DNA of 33,691 nt from a virus. Numbering within the stretch: the first letter of the stretch is position 1; the number at the start of each line of letters is the position of its first letter. Shown one piece after another: positions 19,897 to 33,691 of the stretch. The translations under genes were made by a program, and so were the position numbers. A model generated the notes under the pieces. The model ran no database searches and was not told the DNA's origin. It saw only the letters and a list, made by a program, of their open reading frames with translations. The stretch lies in the IMG/VR virus record IMGVR_UViG_3300049483_000041, positions 1-33,691 of that record; one strand, given 5' to 3'.

Positions 19897-20225
19897 TTCG
19901 TTTCCTCCAGCACAGCCCACGCGCGGCGCTCAATGGCGCCAGCCTGCGGCATTCCGTCTTCATCGTGGTAAGCGTCTTTCAGCCACTGCGCGAACTCGCG
20001 CAGAAGGTCAATGCGCGCCTGTTGGAATCTCCACGCCATCAGGGCTGCGTCGTGCTCTCCCATCGTCGTGTTTTCAGTCCAGTGGTAGTTCACGTCCCCG
20101 CGATCATCTAGCCGGCCTTTCGCGGCACGCAACCAGTCTGCAAAAGTCGTGCGCTCCGAAACCGGCGCCATAACCCTTCGCTCGAACGGACCCGCGTCGG
20201 CGGGCGTCTTCTGTGTGTTGCTCAT
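19893..20225 (-). CDS. Hypothetical protein starting inside attC L1
   Basis: 110 residues from ATG 20225, inside attC L1. AAGGAGG lies 12 bases upstream, also within the attC. Residues 9-17 (ADAGPFERR) are encoded by the second arm of the attC; the body begins after the R' box with VSERTTF. The middle reads LAFW/LRAAKGRLDDR-like phage filler and the C-terminus QWLKDAYHDEDGMPQAGAIE. No attC follows it, so it is the anchor gene beyond the left array. It overlaps the next gene as GTGA. Function unknown. Confidence 0.7.
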   Translation of the reverse strand: MSNTQKTPADAGPFERRVMAPVSERTTFADWLRAAKGRLDDRGDVNYHWTENTTMGEHDAALMAWRFQQARIDLLREFAQWLKDAYHDEDGMPQAGAIERRAWAVLEETK

Positions 20226-20269
20226 AGTGTTGCGGCGCCTCCTTGGTCCGCTCAGCTCAAACGTTAGGC
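20168..20269 (-). other. attC site L1
   Basis: 102 bp. R'' GCCTAAC (20263-20269, minus sense) and a degenerate R' GTTATGG (20168-20174). Arms AGCTGAGCGGACC and GGTCCGTTCGAGCG pair. Within the loop are AAGGAGG (20238-20244) and the ATG at 20225. It is the last attC of the left array; its R' has no downstream partner R''. Confidence 0.85.
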
Positions 20270-20731
20270 CACTTGCGGCGGGCCATCATCTTGTTCCGTG
20301 TGCTCGCGCAGTGGCGAACCCATCAAGCCGTACTTGCGCAGCAGTTCCATGGCCCGGCTCGGCAAGTCGCCCGGCTGCGGCGCGTGTGGCGTGTGCCGCT
20401 TCAGGCTGCTAGTCAACATGCGGATCATCATCGCCAAGTCTTCACGCTCGCGGTACACCTGAGCGTCGGAGACAATGCCGATGCAACGCTCGCGCGCTGC
20501 TGCTGCGGCAGCGTCAAGCGCGATTTGATCGTAGAGTCTTGTCCCACGTTCAACAGGACGGAGCCATTCAACGCCGGATGAATTCGGCATCGGTGTGCCA
20601 ACAATGCTTAGGGCCAGCACTACTCCACATGGTGTGACGCGCTCCGGCTCCACGCCTAACCCCTCGCTCGAACGGACAACGCCCGGCGTGTCAGGTTGTG
20701 CCGCTTCGGATAGGTTAGTTGCGCCGGTCAT
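20264..20731 (-). CDS. Cassette protein with start in attC L2
   Basis: 155 residues from ATG 20731 inside attC L2, in an ATGA overlap with the previous gene. Residues 1-24 are encoded by the attC; the cassette body continues with GVEPERVTP. The C-terminal half is helical (LDAAAAAARERCIGIVSDAQ, LAMMIRMLTSSLKRH). The stop TAA lies in the R'' box of attC L1. The first 21 codons nearly match those at 32275 in the other arm because the attC sites are almost identical. Function unknown. Confidence 0.7.
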   Translation of the reverse strand: MTGATNLSEAAQPDTPGVVRSSEGLGVEPERVTPCGVVLALSIVGTPMPNSSGVEWLRPVERGTRLYDQIALDAAAAAARERCIGIVSDAQVYREREDLAMMIRMLTSSLKRHTPHAPQPGDLPSRAMELLRKYGLMGSPLREHTEQDDGPPQVA

Positions 20732-20755
20732 TGCCGTTCAGCTCCATCGTTGGGC
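20654..20755 (-). other. attC site L2
   Basis: 102 bp. R'' GCCCAAC (20749-20755) and R' GTTAGGC (20654-20660), minus sense. Arms GAGCTGAACGG and CCGTTCGAGCGA pair. The upstream ORF runs through R'' and stops in the ATGA that starts the next ORF. Nearly identical to attC R9 (32251-32352) over the variable region, with a perfect run of about 54 bases. Confidence 0.9.
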
Positions 20756-20991
20756 GTCTTCAGGGTCGCCAGCAGAAGGCGCGCTTCCTTCTCGGCCTTG
20801 CTCGCGGCAGTCATGGCGGCCAGGTGCTGCCGGCTTTCACGGGCCGCGCCTGCGCTGTAGTTGTCGCTGGCCGTCTGGTAGGCAAAGTACGCTTTGGCCT
20901 CCTTCTCGCGGGTGTCCAGCACCTTTGCCAGCGCGGCCCGCAGGCTGTCCACCTGGCAGCGCAGCACATCGGCGTCAAGTTCGGTCGCCAT
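20728..20991 (-). CDS. Cassette coiled-coil protein
   Basis: 87 residues from ATG 20991, overlapping the preceding stop as TGATG. Predicted as one long helix or coiled coil: DADVLRCQVDSLRAALAKVL, REKEAKAYFAYQTASDNYSA, SKAEKEARLLLATL. The last residues (PNDGAERQ) are encoded by the R''/L'' arm of attC L2. It is the second gene of a two-gene cassette. Function unknown. Confidence 0.7.
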   Translation of the reverse strand: MATELDADVLRCQVDSLRAALAKVLDTREKEAKAYFAYQTASDNYSAGAARESRQHLAAMTAASKAEKEARLLLATLKTPNDGAERQ

Positions 20992-21182
20992 CAGTCGTCC
21001 CATCCTTCCATCCACTTCGGCGCGCTGGTCGTGGCGCGCATCCATTCCGGCCACTGCGCCACCTCGCGGCGGCACGCCTCGATCTGCGCCAGGAATCCCG
21101 CGCGCTCCGGCTCCAGCCGCCCAACTCCTCGCTCAACCGGAGCCCCGTCGGCAGCCGGCACCTGTGCATCTTCCTTCTTCAT
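20991..21182 (-). CDS. Small cassette protein with PER motif, start in attC L3
   Basis: 63 residues from ATG 21182 inside attC L3. GGAGG lies 4 bases upstream in the same attC, and the ATG overlaps the previous stop as ATGA. Residues ~12-18 (DGAPVER) come from the attC; the cassette body starts with VGRLEPERAGFLAQIEACR. The C-terminus is rich in Trp (QWPEWM, KWMEGWDD). It shares the GPxER + PERA N-terminal layout with the other left-arm cassette proteins. Confidence 0.7.
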   Translation of the reverse strand: MKKEDAQVPAADGAPVERGVGRLEPERAGFLAQIEACRREVAQWPEWMRATTSAPKWMEGWDD

Positions 21183-21218
21183 CTCGCCTCCGTGTCCCGG
21201 TTAGCTCGAACGTTAGAG
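21119..21218 (-). other. attC site L3
   Basis: 100 bp. R'' CTCTAAC (21212-21218) and R' GTTGGGC (21119-21125), minus sense. Arms GAGCTAACCGGGA and CTCCGGTTGAGCG pair. It contains GGAGG and ATG 21182. The upstream ORF crosses R''/L'' and stops in the ATGA overlap. Confidence 0.88.
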
Positions 21219-21577
21219 CGCATTCCGCGTTTCAAGATGCCTGCCTTCGTCTGGCGCACAACGATCCGCAGTGCTTCAGCGGATGCGTCGCGGTCGCTGC
21301 GCAGCACATCCCACATCGCGTCAGGCATCGCACCGGGAAGCTCGGGCTCATCAGTCACGGCGTCCATCCACGCCTTGCGCTCGGCACAAATGGCCGCTTG
21401 CCACGCATCCCATCCAGCCGAGTAGCAGGTGTCATGGTAGGTGCCGTCTCGGTATAGGGCGGGCGGCAAGTGGTAGCCACGCTTTGCCATCGCCGCCTCA
21501 AAGGCTGCGCGCTCCGGGTCGAGCGCGCTAACTGAGCGCTCAAGCGGACCCGTGCAGGCCTGCTGCTCTTGTTCCAT
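21179..21577 (-). CDS. Cassette protein with PER motif, start in attC L4
   Basis: 132 residues from ATG 21577, with AAAGG 6 bases upstream; ATG 21583 (ATGA overlap with the previous gene) is in frame and also possible. The attC encodes TGPLERS; the body begins SALDPERAAFEAAMAKRGYH. A GWDAWQAAICAERKAW segment follows; W/A-rich stretches like this are common in phage proteins of the 'SAWxAWxAA' type. The C-terminal RSNVRANRDTEAR is encoded by the R''/L'' arm of attC L3. Function unknown. Confidence 0.75.
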   Translation of the reverse strand: MEQEQQACTGPLERSVSALDPERAAFEAAMAKRGYHLPPALYRDGTYHDTCYSAGWDAWQAAICAERKAWMDAVTDEPELPGAMPDAMWDVLRSDRDASAEALRIVVRQTKAGILKRGMRSNVRANRDTEAR

Positions 21578-21628
21578 GCTCATCCTTTCGCGCGGGCCGT
21601 TGCGGTCCGCTTAGCTTCGACGTTGTGC
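21526..21628 (-). other. attC site L4
   Basis: 103 bp. R'' GCACAAC (21622-21628) and R' GTTAGCG (21526-21532), minus sense. Arms GAAGCTAAGCGGACC and GGTCCGCTTGAGCG pair. It holds the stop of the upstream gene and the start ATGs of the downstream gene in the loop. Confidence 0.88.
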
Positions 21629-21906
21629 GTCTTTCCGCTCGCCCTCGCCTCGCACTTGAGGCACAGCGGCGCCATCTGATGCACCGGCTTGCCGCGAGCC
21701 GTGAAGCCTTTCCAGCGCACCATGTGCTCGCTCAGTTCCTGCGGGTAGCGCCACAGTCCGCAGTTGCCGCACTGCTTCTGCCGCAGCCCGGCCTTGTGCT
21801 GCGCCTCGGCCCACTCGTGCCACGCGAGATAGCCTTCGGGCGCTTGGTCGCCTGGCTTGTAGGTCGCCTGCTCCAAGATGCAGGCCACGCGCAGCGGCTT
21901 ACTCAT
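21580..21906 (-). CDS. Cassette zinc-finger protein
   Basis: 108 residues from ATG 21906, overlapping the end of the small upstream gene (ATGAGTAA). QKQCGNCGLWRYPQELSEH and later PLCLKCEARASG provide CxxC ... CxxC, a zinc ribbon. The N-terminus has KPGDQAPEGYLAWHEWAEA, familiar from phage-encoded zinc-ribbon proteins. The last 15 residues are encoded by the first arm of attC L4. It may bind nucleic acid; the target is unknown. Confidence 0.75.
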   Translation of the reverse strand: MSKPLRVACILEQATYKPGDQAPEGYLAWHEWAEAQHKAGLRQKQCGNCGLWRYPQELSEHMVRWKGFTARGKPVHQMAPLCLKCEARASGKTHNVEAKRTATARAKG

Positions 21907-22042
21907 CGTCGTCCTCGTCGGCAGCGTCGTCCAAGTCGAACACCTCGCCGCAAGCCGCGCAGCGCTGCATCCGCTCGTCTTCGCCGTAATCCTCGTCATC
22001 AAACTGGTAGTGCACCTTGCATCCGCACTTCGGGCATGCCAT
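21899..22042 (-). CDS. Tiny zinc-ribbon protein with acidic tail
   Basis: 47 residues from ATG 22042, with AGGA 7 bases upstream. ACPKCGCKVHYQF and QRCAACGEVFDL give CxxCxC ... CxxC. The C-terminus is a run of Asp/Glu. The stop overlaps the next gene's start (ATGAGTAA). The compact CxxC-CxxC architecture and acidic tail suggest a protein- or RNA-binding zinc ribbon. It shares a cassette with the zinc-finger gene that follows. Confidence 0.7.
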   Translation of the reverse strand: MACPKCGCKVHYQFDDEDYGEDERMQRCAACGEVFDLDDAADEDDDE

Positions 22043-22115
22043 CTCTGTTTCCTATCGCTTTCGGAACCGGCCGCACAACCCGCCGGTAGAGCGGACCTCG
22101 TGTAGCACTGCGCAT
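21999..22115 (-). CDS. Possible attC-encoded leader peptide ORF
   Basis: 38 codons from ATG 22115 inside attC L5, with GGAGG 6 bases upstream. It reads RGPLYRRVVRPVPK across R' and then overlaps the tiny zinc-ribbon gene in another frame. It may be a translated leader or a start that lost its partner frame after cassette change. No family; low confidence as a functional protein. Confidence 0.35.
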   Translation of the reverse strand: MRSATRGPLYRRVVRPVPKAIGNRDGMPEVRMQGALPV

Positions 22116-22158
22116 CAGCTACCTCCGTGCCTCGGTCCGCTCACCGGCACCGTTAGGC
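22073..22158 (-). other. attC site L5
   Basis: 86 bp. R'' GCCTAAC (22152-22158) and R' GTTGTGC (22073-22079), minus sense. Arms CCGGTGAGCGGACC and GGTCCGCTCTACCGG pair. The unusual GTTGTGC is matched exactly by the R'' GCACAAC of the same cassette's own attC (L4). Confidence 0.88.
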
Positions 22159-22560
22159 CTCAGAGCGAATGCGCTTCGCGAGGTACGCCGCGTGCTGGGC
22201 CAGTCCCGTCCAGTCGCCCGGTTCGTTCTTCGGCTCGATCAGGCTCGCGCACCGCTCGCGCATCGCAGCGGCATTCGCCACCTCGACCGCCTTGCCAGTC
22301 AGTAGCGGCTCGGCATGTCGGTACAGCCAGAGCAGATCCAGCAACAACGTGCAGTCCAACTCGTCCATATCCGGGCTGCAGTGGTCTTCCTTGGCCGCCT
22401 CCAGGGCGCGCGTGATGTCGTCCCAGATTTCTTTGCCCACGTAACGCAAGCGCTCCAAGGCCTGCTGTACGGCCGGGTTAGCGCGCTCCGGGCCGAGGCC
22501 TAACGGGCGCTCAACCGGACCTGCGTCGGCGGGTTGCTTTGTGCCTTCTTCATGCGCCAT
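22153..22560 (-). CDS. Cassette protein with PER motif, start in attC L6
   Basis: 135 residues from ATG 22560 inside attC L6, with AAGGAGG at 22566-22572 (5-base spacing), the best start signal of the left array. Residues ~10-18 (PADAGPVER) are attC-encoded; the body continues GLGPERANPAVQQALERLRY. Helical segments EIWDDITRALEAAKEDH and a DELDCTLLLDLLWLYRHAE stretch follow. The stop TAA lies in R'' of attC L5. Function unknown. Confidence 0.75.
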   Translation of the reverse strand: MAHEEGTKQPADAGPVERPLGLGPERANPAVQQALERLRYVGKEIWDDITRALEAAKEDHCSPDMDELDCTLLLDLLWLYRHAEPLLTGKAVEVANAAAMRERCASLIEPKNEPGDWTGLAQHAAYLAKRIRSEA

Positions 22561-22595
22561 GTGCGCCTCCTTGTCCGGTTAGCTTTGCGTTAGGA
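22498..22595 (-). other. attC site L6 (first of the left array)
   Basis: 98 bp. R'' TCCTAAC (22589-22595) and R' GTTAGGC (22498-22504), minus sense. Arms AGCTAACCGGAC and GTCCGGTTGAGCG pair. AAGGAGG and ATG lie between the arms. No matching GTTAGGA start is visible upstream, so the cassette it ends has lost its left boundary. Confidence 0.88.
22566..22572 (-). promoter_or_regulatory. Shine-Dalgarno inside attC L6
   Basis: AAGGAGG, 5 bases from ATG 22560. It decides the start of the downstream cassette gene and lies between the two pairing arms of the attC, so RNA folding of the attC would enclose the initiation site. Confidence 0.8.
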
Positions 22596-29075: not shown

Positions 29076-29133
29076 TTCTAACGTTTGAGCTAAGCGGCGA
29101 GCGAAGCGAGTCCGCTTGAGCGAATGGTTCTGC
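29076..29133 (+). other. attC site R1
   Basis: 58 bp. R'' TTCTAAC (29076-29082), R' GTTCTGC (29127-29133). Arms GAGCTAAGCGG and CCGCTTGAGCG pair. R'' matches the TTAGAACTCAC start of cassette 1, and R' matches the R'' of cassette 2. Sister of attC R4 (same GGCGAGCGA/GCGAGTCC centre). Confidence 0.9.
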
Positions 29134-29163
29134 GGCTGTAGCCGAAGCGAAAGGAAAGAGCCG

Positions 29164-29568
29164 ATGAATGCATTTGAAGAGGTGAGCCATGTTGAGCTTG
29201 TGGAGCGCCTGAGGTTTCGGCGCGACGCGATGTGCAGCGAGGCCGCCGATCGGTTGGATTACTTGCTCGCGCAGGAAGACCTGTTGGAGCAGGCTCAGCA
29301 GAAGGCCGCGCGCCTGGAGGCGCAGATTGCCGAGGTCCAGCGGCCGCTCGACGCAGAGATGGGGCGGCTTAATCGCAACCTCATCGAGGCGCGCCAGGCT
29401 GCGAACGCAATGGAAGCGTTGCTACTGTGGGCGTTGTACCACCATCAAGGCGGAAACTCCGCTGTTGGGCAACCGATCCGCAGGATGCTTGGCTATGGAC
29501 CGCATGAACATCTGAGGCCAGAGCACGTCGAACGCGCGAAAGCTGAAGCTGCGCGACAGGGCGCATGA
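29164..29568 (+). CDS. Cassette 2: coiled-coil protein
   Basis: 134 residues from ATG 29164 (AAAGGA upstream); an in-frame TTG in the attC is less likely. AFEEVSHVELVERLRFRRDA then QEDLLEQAQQKAARLEAQIA and EMGRLNRNLIEARQAANAME predict an extended coiled coil. The C-terminus GQPIRRMLGYGPHEHLRPEH is globular. Phage proteins with similar coiled coils over 'ELVERLRxR' are common. Role unknown. Confidence 0.75.
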   Translation: MNAFEEVSHVELVERLRFRRDAMCSEAADRLDYLLAQEDLLEQAQQKAARLEAQIAEVQRPLDAEMGRLNRNLIEARQAANAMEALLLWALYHHQGGNSAVGQPIRRMLGYGPHEHLRPEHVERAKAEAARQGA

Positions 29569-29569
29569 C

Positions 29570-29670
29570 GCAGAACGTTTGACATGAGCCGCCTCAGACG
29601 GCGGCACGGAAGGACAGAAATGGCACAAGTTGACCCGCCGGCTGAGGTCGGCTCGAACGGAGGTTTGGGC
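29570..29670 (+). other. attC site R2
   Basis: 101 bp. R'' GCAGAAC (29570-29576); R' has lost its first G (TTTGGGC, 29664-29670). Long imperfect arms GAGCCGCCTCAGACGGCG and CGCCGGCTGAGGTCGGCTC pair. It contains AAGGA and the ATG at 29620 that starts the next cassette's gene. Confidence 0.82.
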
Positions 29671-29928
29671 GCGTGGGTGCCGACGCGCGAACGCATGCCG
29701 CCGCCCGATGTGTGGCTGCTGGTGGTTTGGGGCGCTCACAAGGCCGTGGACAAGGCGCACACGTTCAACCAGTGGAAGCACCACGCGCACCCGCTTGGGT
29801 ACTTGATCCAAGGCCACCCAGGCGCGCATGTGGATGTGACGCATTGGATGCTTTTGCCGACCCCTCCTGAAGCGCCCAACGCCGGAGTTCAGCCGCGCCG
29901 TCAGGCGTCGGCTGGAACGACAGGTTAG
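29620..29928 (+). CDS. Cassette 3: DUF551 protein, start and stop supplied by flanking attC sites
   Basis: 102 residues from ATG 29620 in attC R2. The DUF551 domain begins exactly after the cassette boundary (GAWVPTRERMPPPDVWLLVV) and ends in VDVTHWMLLPTPPEAP, its diagnostic closing motif. The last ~18 residues are encoded by attC R3 and the stop TAG is in its R' box. The first 15 residues are attC R2-encoded. DUF551 proteins are common in phages; biochemical role unknown. Confidence 0.82.
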   Translation: MAQVDPPAEVGSNGGLGAWVPTRERMPPPDVWLLVVWGAHKAVDKAHTFNQWKHHAHPLGYLIQGHPGAHVDVTHWMLLPTPPEAPNAGVQPRRQASAGTTG

Positions 29929-29930
29929 GC
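29874..29930 (+). other. attC site R3
   Basis: 57 bp. R'' GCCCAAC (29874-29880), R' GTTAGGC (29924-29930). Arms GTTCAGCCG and CGGCTGGAAC pair. The upstream ORF reads through the whole site and stops at TAG in R'. Confidence 0.9.
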
Positions 29931-29950
29931 GTCACGGTGGAGAAAACGAG

Positions 29951-30253
29951 ATGACAACGAACCAACAAATTGCACTGTTCTTCGGAACCCTCTGGGGCGG
30001 CGCTCTTTGCACTTGGCTGTGGATTCGCTGGGCGATGAAGCGAGATGCAAAGGCGGAGGCCGAATTCGCGTGTCGAGTTCAACCCGTGGCGCCAAAGACT
30101 TACGAACAAGAAATGTTCAGCGCCTGGAGAGAAGCTCGGGTGCGCTTCATGCGCGAGAACCCGGACACCGCTCAGGCGCTTGGACTGAAGGAACCGCCAG
30201 AGGACGATGCGGTGTATTCACGCGGCCCGTTTTTTGAGCGCGGCTGGGACTGA
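29951..30253 (+). CDS. Cassette 4: single-pass membrane protein
   Basis: 100 residues from ATG 29951 (GGTGGAG upstream). N-terminal membrane helix (IALFFGTLWGGALCTWLWI) followed by RWAMKRDAKAEAE, then a cytosolic charged region (YEQEMFSAWREARVRF, then ENPDTAQALGLKEPPED). Positive charges after the helix predict N-out/C-in. Function unknown. Confidence 0.75.
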   Translation: MTTNQQIALFFGTLWGGALCTWLWIRWAMKRDAKAEAEFACRVQPVAPKTYEQEMFSAWREARVRFMRENPDTAQALGLKEPPEDDAVYSRGPFFERGWD

Positions 30254-30260
30254 GCATGAC

Positions 30261-30318
30261 GCCTAACAGCATGATAAGCGGCGAGCGATAGCGAGTCCGC
30301 TAGATCTAAGGGTTAGGG
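30261..30318 (+). other. attC site R4
   Basis: 58 bp. R'' GCCTAAC (30261-30267), R' GTTAGGG (30312-30318). Arms ATAAGCGG and CCGCTAGAT pair around GCGAGCGATAGCGAG. R'' complements the first 10 bases of cassette 4, and R' complements the CCCTAAC of cassette 5. Confidence 0.9.
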
Positions 30319-30364
30319 CGCTGGTGCCGAAGCGTTACCATGTTTGCGTGTTACAAAATAGTTG

Positions 30365-30392
30365 TTGACGCTGGCGGTTGCTGTGATACAGT
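30365..30392 (+). promoter_or_regulatory. Cassette 5 promoter
   Basis: TTGACG (30365-30370), 16-base spacer with an extended TG, TACAGT (30387-30392), 32 bases from the gene start. It lies in the 106-base leader of cassette 5, so the cassette carries its own sigma70-like promoter. A GCGTGTTACAAAATAG upstream is similar to the cassette 10 promoter. Confidence 0.65.
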
Positions 30393-30424
30393 AACTACAT
30401 CGCAACACGCAACCGGAGAGCAAC

Positions 30425-30652
30425 ATGACCAAGCCGAACCGCAAGAACTTCAAGGGCATTGCAATCAACGCCGCTGGCGCACAGATCGGCGCGATTTACG
30501 CCGAAGGCGGCGCCTACGTTGTCTACGGCTGGAAAGACAGCGGCGGCTTTAGCGGCGAAAAGAGCGCTCCGCTGACCGGCGACAAGTTCTCGTTTCTTTG
30601 CCGTTTTGACAACGGCTTCCAGATCGAAAAGCACTATCAGGTGGCAGCGTGA
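30425..30652 (+). CDS. Cassette 5: small beta-rich protein, first gene of a bicistron
   Basis: 75 residues from ATG 30425 (GGAG upstream). KNFKGIAINAAGAQIGAIYA, EGGAYVVYGWKDSGGFSG and FSFLCRFDNGFQIEKHYQV suggest a small beta barrel. Its stop overlaps the start of a ribbon-helix-helix-like gene (GTGA). Own promoter, small size and RHH partner resemble a toxin-antitoxin or autoregulated module; no toxin family is recognised. Confidence 0.75.
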   Translation: MTKPNRKNFKGIAINAAGAQIGAIYAEGGAYVVYGWKDSGGFSGEKSAPLTGDKFSFLCRFDNGFQIEKHYQVAA

Positions 30653-30831
30653 CCGACAAGAGCAAAGGGGGGCGACCCCCTGCGCCGCCAGGCCTGCGCC
30701 GGGTAAACGTGCCGCTGCGCCTGCCAGAATGGCTGGTGCAGTGGATGGCAGAGCAGGACAAAACGCCTGCGGAGTTGATCGAAGCCGCACTGCTGAAGGC
30801 GCACAAGCTGCGCCCGCCGCGTGCGCCCTAA
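30649..30831 (+). CDS. Cassette 5: ribbon-helix-helix-like protein
   Basis: 60 residues from GTG 30649. A basic Pro-rich N-terminus (GGRPPAPPGLRR) leads to VNVPLRLPEWLVQWMAEQ (beta strand and helix A) and TPAELIEAALLKAHKL (helix B), an Arc/CopG-like RHH. It probably dimerises and binds DNA, plausibly the cassette promoter. The stop TAA is in R'' of attC R5. Confidence 0.78.
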   Translation: MTDKSKGGRPPAPPGLRRVNVPLRLPEWLVQWMAEQDKTPAELIEAALLKAHKLRPPRAP

Positions 30832-30912
30832 CGTTTGACTTGAGCGGCCGAGGCACGGCCGGCGCGGAGCGGAACATTGATACCCGAGGTCCGCTCGAAG
30901 GAAGGGTTAGGC
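30826..30912 (+). other. attC site R5
   Basis: 87 bp. R'' CCCTAAC (30826-30832, preceded by G), R' GTTAGGC (30906-30912). Arms GACTTGAGCGG and CCGCTCGAAGG pair; the variable centre has GGCCGAGGCACGGCC. R'' complements the TTAGGGCGC start of cassette 5. Confidence 0.92.
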
Positions 30913-30937
30913 GTCTGGTGGATAACGAGGACAGAAA

Positions 30938-31186
30938 ATGAGTACCTACTACTACCTGGTGTGCGACAAGCACAAAGAGCGGACGGATGCTGCAAGTCGC
31001 ACGGCTGGAGGCGGTGTTTGCCATTTGGCCGATTCGGTTCACACACTGCTCCGTTTCATCGTGGCGCATGACGGCTGCCAGTTGCGCTCGGTCAACGAGC
31101 ACACCAACGACGCCTACGACAGCCAGTTTTCAGACTGGGATGAGGAAAACGTCGAAGCGATGTACCTCAAAGAACGGGACGCCTAA
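30938..31186 (+). CDS. Cassette 6: small acidic protein
   Basis: 82 residues from ATG 30938 (GAGGA upstream). STYYYLVCDKHKERTDAASR, then LRFIVAHDGCQLRSVNEHTN and an acidic C-terminus (SDWDEENVEAMYLKERDA). The 'YYYLVCDxHK' opening suggests a small phage-type protein with C and H near the N-terminus. Function unknown. The stop TAA lies in R''. Confidence 0.75.
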   Translation: MSTYYYLVCDKHKERTDAASRTAGGGVCHLADSVHTLLRFIVAHDGCQLRSVNEHTNDAYDSQFSDWDEENVEAMYLKERDA

Positions 31187-31238
31187 CGTTCGAGTTGAGG
31201 GGCGCCGATAGGCGTCCCGCTCGAACGAGGGGTTAGGC
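31181..31238 (+). other. attC site R6
   Basis: 58 bp. R'' GCCTAAC (31181-31187), R' GTTAGGC (31232-31238). Arms TTCGAGTTGAGGGGCGCC and GGCGTCCCGCTCGAA pair; a textbook short attC. Confidence 0.95.
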
Positions 31239-31291
31239 GGCGTGGTTGATAAACGAGCGTCTCGAACCGTAATAGAAGTAGGAGGCCTACC

Positions 31292-31516
31292 ATGATTGAC
31301 TACCCAGCGGACAAAGAAGCGGAAGACAACGTGAAGTCACTTCTATCGGAGGCGTTGCGATACCTCAAAGACGGACGGCTTTACTACAGCGAAGTGGATG
31401 GCCGGCGCAGGCGCGAGACCGCACAGCAGCATGCCGACCGCATCAGCAGTGAGGTTCAAGAGAACGAAGACTTGCGCGCCTTGGTAGACGAGATCGAAAA
31501 GCATCTGGAGAACTGA
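31292..31516 (+). CDS. Cassette 7: small helical protein
   Basis: 74 residues from ATG 31292, with AGGAGG 6 bases upstream, the strongest Shine-Dalgarno in the array. DYPADKEAEDNVKSLLSEAL then RRRRETAQQHADRISSEVQE, NEDLRALVDEIEKHLEN is helical and charged. Function unknown. First of two genes in the cassette. Confidence 0.75.
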   Translation: MIDYPADKEAEDNVKSLLSEALRYLKDGRLYYSEVDGRRRRETAQQHADRISSEVQENEDLRALVDEIEKHLEN

Positions 31517-31517
31517 C

Positions 31518-31622
31518 ATGAAACGCATTGACCCGTGGCTGGCTGCAGCAGTGACGCTTTATGCGGCGAACATCATTGGGTGGGCCGCATGGGCTGTCTG
31601 CAAAGTGACGCAAGGCGCCTAA
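31518..31622 (+). CDS. Cassette 7: 34-residue membrane peptide
   Basis: ATG 31518, one base after the previous stop. KRIDPW is followed by one hydrophobic helix (LAAAVTLYAANIIGWAAWAV) and CKVTQGA. The stop TAA is in R'' of attC R7. A small membrane peptide co-encoded with a helical protein; a hydrophobic-toxin role is possible but unsupported. Confidence 0.65.
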   Translation: MKRIDPWLAAAVTLYAANIIGWAAWAVCKVTQGA

Positions 31623-31701
31623 CGCCGAGTTGAGCGGCGCGCGCTCGGTGGACGCAAGAAGCACGGACGCCAACGCGCGTCCGCTCGAATGACAGTTAGG
31701 C
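31617..31701 (+). other. attC site R7
   Basis: 85 bp. R'' GCCTAAC (31617-31623), R' GTTAGGC (31695-31701). Arms GAGTTGAGCGGCGCG and CGCGTCCGCTCGAA pair. Confidence 0.93.
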
Positions 31702-31718
31702 TGGTGACGGAGCGAGGA

Positions 31719-31946
31719 ATGATGCAAGCAGCGGAATGGATTCACGACAGCAAGCCGCCGCGCTTTGGTGGCCCGCTGTTCTCTCAAGTGTGGCTTTATG
31801 ATGGCTCTGTGCGGCTTGTGCGACGCGTTGGAGATGAGTCAATGAGCATCACTCCGGGCGAGTTCGTGTATGCCGACAACCGGTTCCCATTGGCTCAGGC
31901 ATTGTGCGATCTTGGCCGTGTGGTGGCCTGGCGACCTGTGGCCTAA
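31719..31946 (+). CDS. Cassette 8: small hypothetical protein
   Basis: 75 residues from ATG 31719 with GGAG 6 bases upstream; an in-frame ATG at 31689 lies in the attC. QAAEWIHDSKPPRFGGPLFS, then WLYDGSVRLVRRVGDESMS and ITPGEFVYADNRFPLAQAL. It looks like a small beta-rich domain. No family recognised. The stop TAA is in R''. Confidence 0.72.
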   Translation: MMQAAEWIHDSKPPRFGGPLFSQVWLYDGSVRLVRRVGDESMSITPGEFVYADNRFPLAQALCDLGRVVAWRPVA

Positions 31947-31997
31947 CGCACAGTTCACCGGCGGCCGCAGGCCGTCCGGTGGAACGCAGGGTTAGAG
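31941..31997 (+). other. attC site R8
   Basis: 57 bp. R'' GCCTAAC (31941-31947), R' GTTAGAG (31991-31997). Arms GTTCACCGGCGGC and GCCGTCCGGTGGAAC pair. Confidence 0.95.
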
Positions 31998-32017
31998 CGC
32001 GCTGCTGGAGAAACTTG

Positions 32018-32263
32018 ATGACCTGGAATTACCGCGTCCTCCAATTTGTTGACCCGGCTACCGAGGAGTTGTGGCAGGCAATTCACGAGGTGCACTATGA
32101 CGAATCCGGTGATCCAGCCTCGTACTCGGAAGACCCAGCGGTGGTGATGTCGCACGACGCGAGCAACGCCCGGGCAGACTTGGGATGGGTGCTCGACAAG
32201 ATGCGCGAAGCACTGTTGAAGCCGGTTCTGGTGGAGCGCGACTTCAAGCGTTCTAACGTGTGA
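32018..32263 (+). CDS. Cassette 9: small hypothetical protein
   Basis: 81 residues from ATG 32018 (GGAG upstream). TWNYRVLQFVDPATEELWQA then IHEVHYDESGDPASYSEDPA, LDKMREALLKPVLVERDF. The 'TWNYRV ... IHEVxYD' opening is one I recall from cassette- and phage-borne small proteins. Function unknown. It stops inside attC R9. Confidence 0.75.
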   Translation: MTWNYRVLQFVDPATEELWQAIHEVHYDESGDPASYSEDPAVVMSHDASNARADLGWVLDKMREALLKPVLVERDFKRSNV

Positions 32264-32352
32264 GCTGAACGGCAATGACCGGCGCAACTAACCTATCCGA
32301 AGCGGCACAACCTGAACCGCCGGGCATTGTCCGTTCGAGCGACGGGTTAGCC
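32251..32352 (+). other. attC site R9
   Basis: 102 bp. R'' TTCTAAC (32251-32257), R' GTTAGCC (32346-32352). Arms GAGCTGAACGG and CCGTTCGAGCGA pair. ATG 32275 inside it opens the next gene. Nearly identical to attC L2 on the opposite strand. Confidence 0.92.
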
Positions 32353-32487
32353 GGCTACGCGCAGACGCTGCGTGAACTGCTGGCGTGCTGCCATGCGTGG
32401 GGGCCGAATGTGCGCGTCATGGGAAACGTGCGGGCCGGCGATGCGGCCGCAGCGATTGCGCATGTTTTGCAGCATTGGCATAGTTGA
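32275..32487 (+). CDS. Cassette 10: small protein with start in attC R9
   Basis: 70 residues. Residues 1-24 are encoded by attC R9; the cassette-borne part reads GYAQTLRELLACCHAWGPNV then RVMGNVRAGDAAAAIAHVL, which resembles a short phage protein domain ('LRxLLxACxxWxPxxRLxGNVRAxD'). There is no strong Shine-Dalgarno before ATG 32275. Its stop TGA lies inside the -35 box of the next promoter. Confidence 0.65.
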   Translation: MTGATNLSEAAQPEPPGIVRSSDGLAGYAQTLRELLACCHAWGPNVRVMGNVRAGDAAAAIAHVLQHWHS

Positions 32488-32512
32488 CATGACACGTCAT
32501 GCGTGTTATAAT
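32484..32512 (+). promoter_or_regulatory. Consensus sigma70 promoter inside cassette 10
   Basis: TTGACA (32484-32489), 17 bases, TATAAT (32507-32512), perfect in both boxes and with an extended TG. The spacer has ACACG/CGTGT and TGAC/GTCA inverted repeats, and CGCCAGC/GCTGGCG (32518-32536) flanks the transcription start. Strong, probably repressed by the RHH-like protein downstream. Confidence 0.88.
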
Positions 32513-32554
32513 AGCTGCGCCAGCGCGGTGCTGGCGACTACTTTGGAGCACAAC

Positions 32555-32797
32555 ATGCAAACAACGTTCACGGTGCTGGTGACCCTGCAACACGACGAAG
32601 GGCAGGGTCACTCGCCTTCTCGGATTGCCGAGATCGTTCAGTGCGCTCTCGAAGAAGGAACCTCGTGCAGCGGCGGATTTCACGCGGCGCAGGTTGATGC
32701 TTTCAAGGGGCTGGCGATCACGGACACGCGGGTCGGCTCGCGTAGCGAGTGCGACCGGCTGCACCGCATCATGCCGCTGCACACGGCTACGGCATGA
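32555..32797 (+). CDS. Cassette 10: first gene of the promoter-driven bicistron
   Basis: 80 residues from ATG 32555 (GGAG upstream). TTFTVLVTLQHDEGQGHSPS, then RIAEIVQCALEEGTSCSGGF and HAAQVDAFKGLAITDTRVG suggest a small alpha/beta protein. Its stop overlaps the next start (ATGA). Not similar to the first gene of cassette 5, although the arrangement is the same. Confidence 0.75.
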   Translation: MQTTFTVLVTLQHDEGQGHSPSRIAEIVQCALEEGTSCSGGFHAAQVDAFKGLAITDTRVGSRSECDRLHRIMPLHTATA

Positions 32798-32955
32798 CGA
32801 CCCCGGCCGCGAAGTGGAAAGCGGCCGAGCGCGCCCGGCACAAGGAAGCTGGGCGCGTGGCGGTGACGGTGTATGTGCTGCCAGAAGCGCGCGAACGGCT
32901 GCACCGCTACGTCAAGCGACTGAACGAGCGCGCATTACGTGGCCGAGCCGGCTAA
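32794..32955 (+). CDS. Cassette 10: small ribbon-helix-helix-like protein
   Basis: 53 residues from ATG 32794. A basic helix (PAAKWKAAERARHKEAGR) precedes VAVTVYVLPEARERLHRYVK and RLNERALRG. The strand plus first helix is RHH-like; the second helix is short, so the assignment is tentative. The stop lies in R'' of attC R10. Confidence 0.68.
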   Translation: MTTPAAKWKAAERARHKEAGRVAVTVYVLPEARERLHRYVKRLNERALRGRAG

Positions 32956-33050
32956 CGCCAGGTTAAGCGGGTGACCACGGCGCAGACACGCAACCCGGAG
33001 CGCGACACGGCCACCCGCCGTGGGCGCTCCGCTTGAACCGACAGTTAGGC
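32950..33050 (+). other. attC site R10
   Basis: 101 bp. R'' GGCTAAC (32950-32956), R' GTTAGGC (33044-33050). Arms GGTTAAGCGG and CCGCTTGAACC pair, with GACCACGGCG/CGCCGTGG-like pairing inside. The R'' region complements the first 10 bases of cassette 10 (GTTAGCCGGCT). Confidence 0.92.
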
Positions 33051-33075
33051 GTCACTGCGCGCCACAGGAGCAACG

Positions 33076-33273
33076 ATGAACATCTACCACATAGGCTGGA
33101 CGCAAAACGAGAGCTTCGGATTGAACGCGGTGGTGATTGCCGCCAATGAAGCCGAAGCGTTGAAGGAGTTGGACTTGGACGACTCCTACAACAGCGAGAT
33201 TCGCATCAGTCTGATGGGCGTGTGCACAGACGGCACAAAGACTGCGCAGACCGTGTGCAAAGAGTCTTTGTGA
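33076..33273 (+). CDS. Cassette 11: small hypothetical protein
   Basis: 65 residues from ATG 33076 (AGGAG upstream). NIYHIGWTQNESFGLNAVVI, AANEAEALKELDLDDSYNSE, then IRISLMGVCTDGTKTAQTV. Alternating strand-helix-strand like small ferredoxin-fold domains ('VVIAANEAEALKEL' is a common phage motif). Function unknown. Confidence 0.75.
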   Translation: MNIYHIGWTQNESFGLNAVVIAANEAEALKELDLDDSYNSEIRISLMGVCTDGTKTAQTVCKESL

Positions 33274-33274
33274 C

Positions 33275-33360
33275 GCCTAACGTTTGAACTGAGAGGCGGC
33301 CCGCTCGGTGGCGCCTGATGCGCAAACCTAGAGGCCGTCCTCTCGAGCGAAGAGTTAGAA
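33275..33360 (+). other. attC site R11
   Basis: 86 bp. R'' GCCTAAC (33275-33281), R' GTTAGAA (33354-33360). Arms TTGAACTGAGAGGCGGCC and GGCCGTCCTCTCGAGCGA pair. The 12 bases around R'' are the complement of the start of cassette 11. Confidence 0.93.
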
Positions 33361-33377
33361 CTCTGATGGAGAAAGCA

Positions 33378-33691
33378 ATGCACCTGTGGGAAGTGGACCA
33401 CCCGTACTACTGCAACGAAGGCAACTATTTCAGTTCCAAGTCGGTGTGCGACGAGCACAAGACGTTGGCCTCGTTCCTCGATGGCTACAAGGACGCCGAC
33501 ATGGACATGAACCTCGTGTTTCGGTGGGACTGGCGCGAGGGCGACGACTGGGGCGCGGGGCCGTTCACTGGTGACGTGAACTACCGAAACGGGCACTTGC
33601 TCATCTTCTGGATGGGCCAGCGCAAGGGCCTATATCGCTACTCTAAGGTGGAGGTGTGTCGCGCGGACGAGCACGCGGTGATCGAGTTCTT
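33378..33691 (+). CDS. Cassette 12: acidic/aromatic protein, open at window end
   Basis: From ATG 33378 (GGAG upstream; in-frame ATG 33366 possible) the frame is open for 104 codons to the edge. HLWEVDHPYYCNEGNYFSS, SFLDGYKDADMDMNLVFRWD, WREGDDWGAGPF and LLIFWMGQRKGLYRYSKVEV show a Trp/Tyr/Asp-rich beta protein. The opening resembles small cassette and phage proteins ('LWEVDHPYYCxEGNYF'). Function unknown. Confidence 0.8.
   Translation, partial: MHLWEVDHPYYCNEGNYFSSKSVCDEHKTLASFLDGYKDADMDMNLVFRWDWREGDDWGAGPFTGDVNYRNGHLLIFWMGQRKGLYRYSKVEVCRADEHAVIEF

Follow-up and report, generated by a model that had tools for sequence, protein, structure and literature searches.

What does it mean for a gene when its start codon lies inside a recombination site, and does such a site lend its start to whatever gene is inserted behind it? 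The question is raised by a virus record of 33,691 bases with terminase and portal genes, analyzed here at full length and called the window. Its 17 attC sites form two arrays: six lie at 20168-22595, an interval that had been predicted correctly at both ends, and serve minus-strand genes, and eleven lie at 29076-33360 and serve plus-strand genes. We consider it probable that these are reversed phage cassettes, in which each gene has its own attC at its 5' end and, in a long class of sites, starts within that attC.

All 17 sites scored 42-71 in a scanner trained on 62 attC, mainly bacterial with a few from phage contigs, against a maximum of 20.6 in 20 shuffled windows. Each has RYYYAAC and GTTRRRY boxes around imperfect L' and L'' arms and, read as R', L', variable region, L'' and R'' in gene direction, clearly outscores its own reverse complement; the extra L'' base that sets strand and orientation is evident from this difference and from the bacterial alignment. 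No IntI gene was found in the window contig, which corresponds to a CALIN (at least two attC without IntI) rather than to an integron with IntI and attI beside the array. An Rfam search of the window gave no match, the attC consensus matched none of the isolate phages, no isolate phage had a terminase more than 60% identical to that of the window, and the L4 protein had no relatives among the viral contigs searched. The sites L2 (20654-20755) and R9 (32251-32352) share about 95% identity over L' to R''; they lie in arrays of opposite direction, and the bodies on both flanks differ. The first ~120 bases past R'' of R4 (30318-30440) are 79-94% identical to bodies in other phage contigs, where they sit behind different attC (L280, L333, L347, L319, L342).

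Start codons were located within attC as originally predicted: in L1, L2, L3, L4, L6, R2 and R9 an ATG in the variable region opens a frame that continues through L'' and R'' into the body, and AAGGAGG or GGAGG is found in L1, L3, L5 and L6. The L5 site holds a leader only (38 codons in attC), and in it, as in R1, R3-R8, R10 and R11 (ten of the 17 sites), the gene starts past R''. The residues encoded before the R'' cut number about 14-24 (10-24 in the original prediction).

Table. Sites and genes of the two attC arrays (aa, amino acids; SD, Shine-Dalgarno sequence; for nine sites of the right array a single position is given).
Feature	Position	Strand	Scanner score	Properties
attC L1	20168..20269	-	71 (28 in the other direction)	gene-strand order R' (GCCTAAC), L', SD AAGGAGG, ATG at 20225, L'', R''
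L1 gene	19893..20225	-		110 aa, MSNTQKTPADAGPFERRVMA..., start within attC; no match in PHROG or Pfam
attC L2	20654..20755	-	54	SD GGAG
L2 gene	20264..20731	-		155 aa, attC start, phase 2; TAA stop in R' of L1; weak match to phrog_660 (unknown function)
attC L3	21119..21218	-	51	SD GGAGG, ATG at 21182
L3 first gene	20991..21182	-		63 aa, attC start, phase 0
L3 second gene	20728..20991	-		own ATG in body; TGA stop overlaps L2 start (ATGA)
attC L4	21526..21628	-	49	start at 21583 (ATGA overlap) or 21577 (SD AAGGA)
L4 gene	21179..21583	-		132-134 aa, attC start, phase 0; stop overlaps L3 start
attC L5	22073..22158	-	45	variable region with short leader ORF only
L5 gene	21899..22042	-		47 aa, cysteine-rich; start at 22042, in body past R''
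attC L6	22498..22595	-	49	SD AAGGAGG, ATG at 22560
L6 gene	22153..22560	-		135 aa, attC start, phase 2; TAA stop in R' of L5
attC R1	29076	+
attC R2	29570..29669	+	42	SD AAGGA, ATG at 29620; R'' altered to GTTTGGG
R2 gene	29620..29928	+		102 aa, DUF551 (Pfam PF04448, 26.9 bits against a cut-off of 22)
attC R3	29874	+
attC R4	30261	+
attC R5	30826	+
attC R6	31181	+
attC R7	31617	+
attC R8	31941	+
attC R9	32251..32352	+	56	ATG at 32275, without a good Shine-Dalgarno
R9 gene	32275..32487	+		70 aa, attC start, phase 2
attC R10	32950	+
attC R11	33275	+

The same anatomy is widespread among phage contigs. In a survey that counted an SD (at least 5 nt) plus an ATG in the variable region, whether or not the frame was open, such starts were present in 168 of 832 phage-contig sites and 2 of 686 bacterial controls (in the first phage set, 146 of 713, with phases 0/1/2 at 76/2/68). 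The 168 sites fall into phases 0, 1 and 2 as 91/2/75, phase 1 being blocked by TGA in the canonical L'' and TAG in the canonical R''; its sole open case is R2 of the window, where both stops are gone (CTCGAAC, GTTTGGG). Fisher tests gave p of 2e-43 against the bacterial controls and 7e-23 for phase, both overstated, as the sites are related. Unlike the bacterial controls, the phage set has a peak of attC length at 100-104 nt. Given the excess over bacterial sites and the mere two sites in the frame that L'' and R'' close, attC start codons are not due to chance, and the counts show selection for an open frame. Substitutions in the attC-encoded leaders display no codon-position bias (89/115/111, no excess at the third position), so that the open frame, rather than the leader peptide, appears to be kept. 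Purifying selection on the attC-encoded peptide was rejected on the same ground. The SD is no more accessible in attC loops than in shuffled ones, and the ATG only slightly more open.

The attC ATGs might nevertheless be incidental or open short leaders, with the true starts past R'' as in ordinary cassettes, a reading made conceivable by attI1 ORF-11, a short leader known to act by coupling (PMC8876359), by the few bodies with an in-frame start signal of their own, and by one identical body that has an in-frame attC start in one context but not in another (L135/L242). We find it very doubtful. Only 9 of the 147 bodies behind attC starts contain an in-frame SD and ATG of their own, compared with 261 of 382 other cassettes, and the absence of such a signal nearby from the remaining 138 bears out the prediction that many bodies lack a start. 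The near absence of closed-phase starts and the loss of both blocking stops in R2 also speak against incidental ATGs.

To which gene such a start belongs depends on which end of attC is cut, and gene direction is informative here. In bacterial genomes and viral contigs searched with the motif GCCTAACGNTTGAGYTNAGCGG, genes were antisense to the motif at 566 bacterial sites, sense at 37 and unclear at 83 (686 in all), whereas in phage contigs 641 were sense, 86 antisense and 105 unclear (832 in all); some tie or opposite calls arise because codon GC and length were the sole criteria applied to opposite-direction ORFs under cassettes. By locus, 177 phage arrays are mostly reversed and 18 mostly canonical. 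The latter form a minority of attC-bearing viral contigs with ordinary gene direction, L378 in record G046 among them, and phage TJE1, published as typical, is likewise canonical by our scoring. In the phage and the bacterial set alike, it is the downstream arm that contains the extra L'' base. In a canonical cassette attC follows its gene on one strand, and the start lies after the core site; the window genes are reversed.

Phages with an integrase of their own add evidence on geometry. IntI exceeded the TIGR02249 cut-off in five of the 48 attC-bearing records tested, and in all five the position and direction of attC relative to IntI are alike and canonical. Genes run toward IntI in G019, G031, G042 and G047, all of which carry phage structural or replication genes, and away from it, as usual, in G046. 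It is thus the genes that are reversed and not the recombination machinery. The four phage contigs have the integrase beside the array, and an attI-like stretch common to three of them, CTTCAATTCGAC or a close variant of it, lies between IntI and the last cassette; in G031 a 95-aa ORF ends with TAA at the R box of this stretch. The integrase lies downstream of the reversed arrays and co-directional with them in G031 (L394), G042 (L395), G047 (L399) and G019 (L392), while G046, also with IntI, resembles an ordinary integron. The window contig ends within its right array (33360-33691), where the geometry of these relatives would place IntI, and an IntI gene may lie beyond the right end.

Taken together, the L'/L'' asymmetry, the direction of bacterial genes and the position relative to IntI in four phages identify the gene-strand G^TTRRRY end as R'', so that the original prediction, which took it for R', had placed the crossover at the wrong end. 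With the canonical R' crossover upstream of the start, attC and the body downstream of it constitute one cassette: phage cassettes are mounted back to front, R' first, then the start, then the body.

The breakpoints of exchanged cassettes point the same way. Between contexts, full-length bodies at least 94% identical break at R' in 28 cases and at R'' in nine (R' 26 without one probably canonical G046 cluster), R' of the folded bottom strand being where IntI would be expected to recombine; this sequence comparison yields small counts from metagenome assemblies, in which joins at short repeats could mimic some breaks. Near-identical units of attC plus body recur between unrelated flanks (L297/L329 twice, L260/L286, and L242/L399, the last shared by two IntI phages), and pairs linked to the 5' attC but not the 3' attC outnumber the reverse by 7:1 (6:1 if one probably canonical pair is set aside).

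The rival view is that of start-donor cassettes, with the crossover at gene-strand G^TTRRRY, each attC belonging to the upstream body and its start lent to whatever follows. It draws on real exchanges. The same body occurs behind unrelated 5' attC with the junction at G^TTRRRY, that is at R'' (L310/L316, L260/L297, L328/L331), and seven of 24 body clusters have a changed 5' attC. Different start modules precede near-identical or similar bodies in the same phase (L227/L316, L249/L305, L008/L324, L262/L282, L369/L381), and start-module families such as MEQSSPPALVRLSEGLG are fused at that junction to varied bodies. The nine R'' breaks, moreover, mean that attC and body are separable, which counts against the reversed-cassette model. 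Near-identical attC sites also accompany different genes in ordinary chromosomal integrons, and pairs with identical attC and different bodies were for this reason left out as evidence for R'' exchange. At R'' breaks start modules are exchanged; in all pairs in which each version has a start, the two starts are in the same phase, as expected from the survival of working frames. Start donation as the rule is nonetheless quite improbable in view of the R' end as located above, the excess of R' breaks and the 7:1 linkage to the 5' attC. The single conserved phase expected as a donor signature is also contradicted by the about equal use of two phases, so that roughly one random R'' swap in two would disrupt the reading frame. 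A universal donor rule is excluded by this division into two phases and by the preference for R', which together leave room for occasional exchange of starts. Of the original proposal, it stands that attC carries the start and that modules swap; that this is the normal crossover, feeding any following cassette, does not, since R' is favored. Start donation is real but secondary, and as a rule a start-bearing attC is part of the cassette whose gene it starts and does not serve a neighboring one.

Integron integrase might be dispensable altogether, the shuffling being due to conserved attC repeats that recombine by homology or annealing, or to assembly joins. Conserved blocks are present at both attC ends, some junctions fall at R'', and IntI is missing from the window contig and from most others tested. 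We hold this to be unlikely, as breaks prefer the canonical R' cut to the longer conserved block at R'', four of the five records with IntI have reversed genes, and IntI1 acts on other phage attC sites in published assays (PMC9892861).

Gene ends relate to the R' cut as well. Of the phage genes whose end lies close to an R' box (492), 214 have TAA exactly at the cut, 378 end at or before it and 114 past it, in the next cassette; 14 of 173 genes overlap the following start by 4 bases or by 1. In the window, stop and start overlap between L4 and L3, between the second L3 gene and L2 and, by position, between a second L5 ORF and L4. These ATGA overlaps lie within the next attC (21580-21583, 21179-21182, 20728-20731), suggesting translational coupling across the R' cut.

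In the reversed-cassette model, the unit on the gene strand begins with C and L', continues with the variable region, L'', R'' and the body, and closes with GCCTAA, the cut being at R' (GCCTAA^C). In the long class (~98-104 nt) the variable region, which is the attC hairpin loop, holds the SD and ATG; ribosomes would initiate there and keep the frame across L'' and R'' up to the body belonging to that cassette, and the next R' often supplies the TAA stop, the frame otherwise continuing to overlap the next start. IntI, made by the host or, in some relatives, encoded by the phage, would move attC and gene together through R' recombination; with units cut at R', the start-bearing attC most likely arrives with its own gene. 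Occasional recombination at R'' could re-fuse start modules to other bodies, giving a protein only if the phase matches. In phages with reversed cassettes the sense strand of the gene would be the recombinogenic one. In ordinary arrays attC stem-loops hinder translation, a hindrance relieved by short ORFs in attI or attC (PMC8876359); a start inside the attC loop would have the same effect, and a plausible benefit is that the gene begins inside the stem-loop and not behind it. Whether all this amounts to a distinct phage form of integron, with genes directed toward the integrase, attC 5' of every gene, some attC encoding the start and N-terminus, R' exchange moving genes and rarer R'' exchange shuffling start modules in two frames, seems to us evenly balanced.

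A widespread phage pool of opposite gene orientation would hold cassettes that are read correctly in phage arrays only, partly separating phage from bacterial cassette exchange. An attC that encodes a start turns a recombination site into part of a protein and provides a clear means of locating the integrase cut by comparison. Annotation that assumes a start after the core site will misplace the N-termini of such genes. R'' exchange in two compatible frames, if true, would generate combinatorial N-termini and expression control.

The arrays resemble bacterial chromosomal integrons of the Piscinibacter/Rubrivivax/Rhodanobacter type in their R', R'', L' and L'' elements with the extra L'' base, their main breakpoint at R' and their small promoterless genes, but differ in that the phage gene is reversed to attC, which lies in front of it and may contain its start codon. 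Through bottom-strand selectivity, the cassette genes of ordinary integrons stay in sense behind the Pc promoter (PMC11023631). Arrays of attC in phage genomes, some with IntI, have been reported before; the accessible text of that study (Qi et al. 2023, PMC9892861) describes their structure as typical, unlike the reversed genes seen here, and contains no mention of reversed genes or attC-borne starts. No description of reversed cassettes with attC starts was found in a search of the open literature, which most subscription journals lie outside. As with the ORF-11/ORF-18 enhancers of attI1 in class 1 integrons (PMC8876359), SD and ATG come from a recombination site, and the reading frame may extend across the cut. 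Those are short leaders at attI that end before the gene and act by coupling, whereas the attC frame goes on to encode the gene's own N-terminus; only the L5 leader is comparable to them. The reverse integrons of Spirochaetota (mentioned in PMC9668308) share with the phage arrays an unusual orientation of one integron part: there the integrase gene is reversed, while here the cassette genes are reversed and the relation of IntI to attC is kept.
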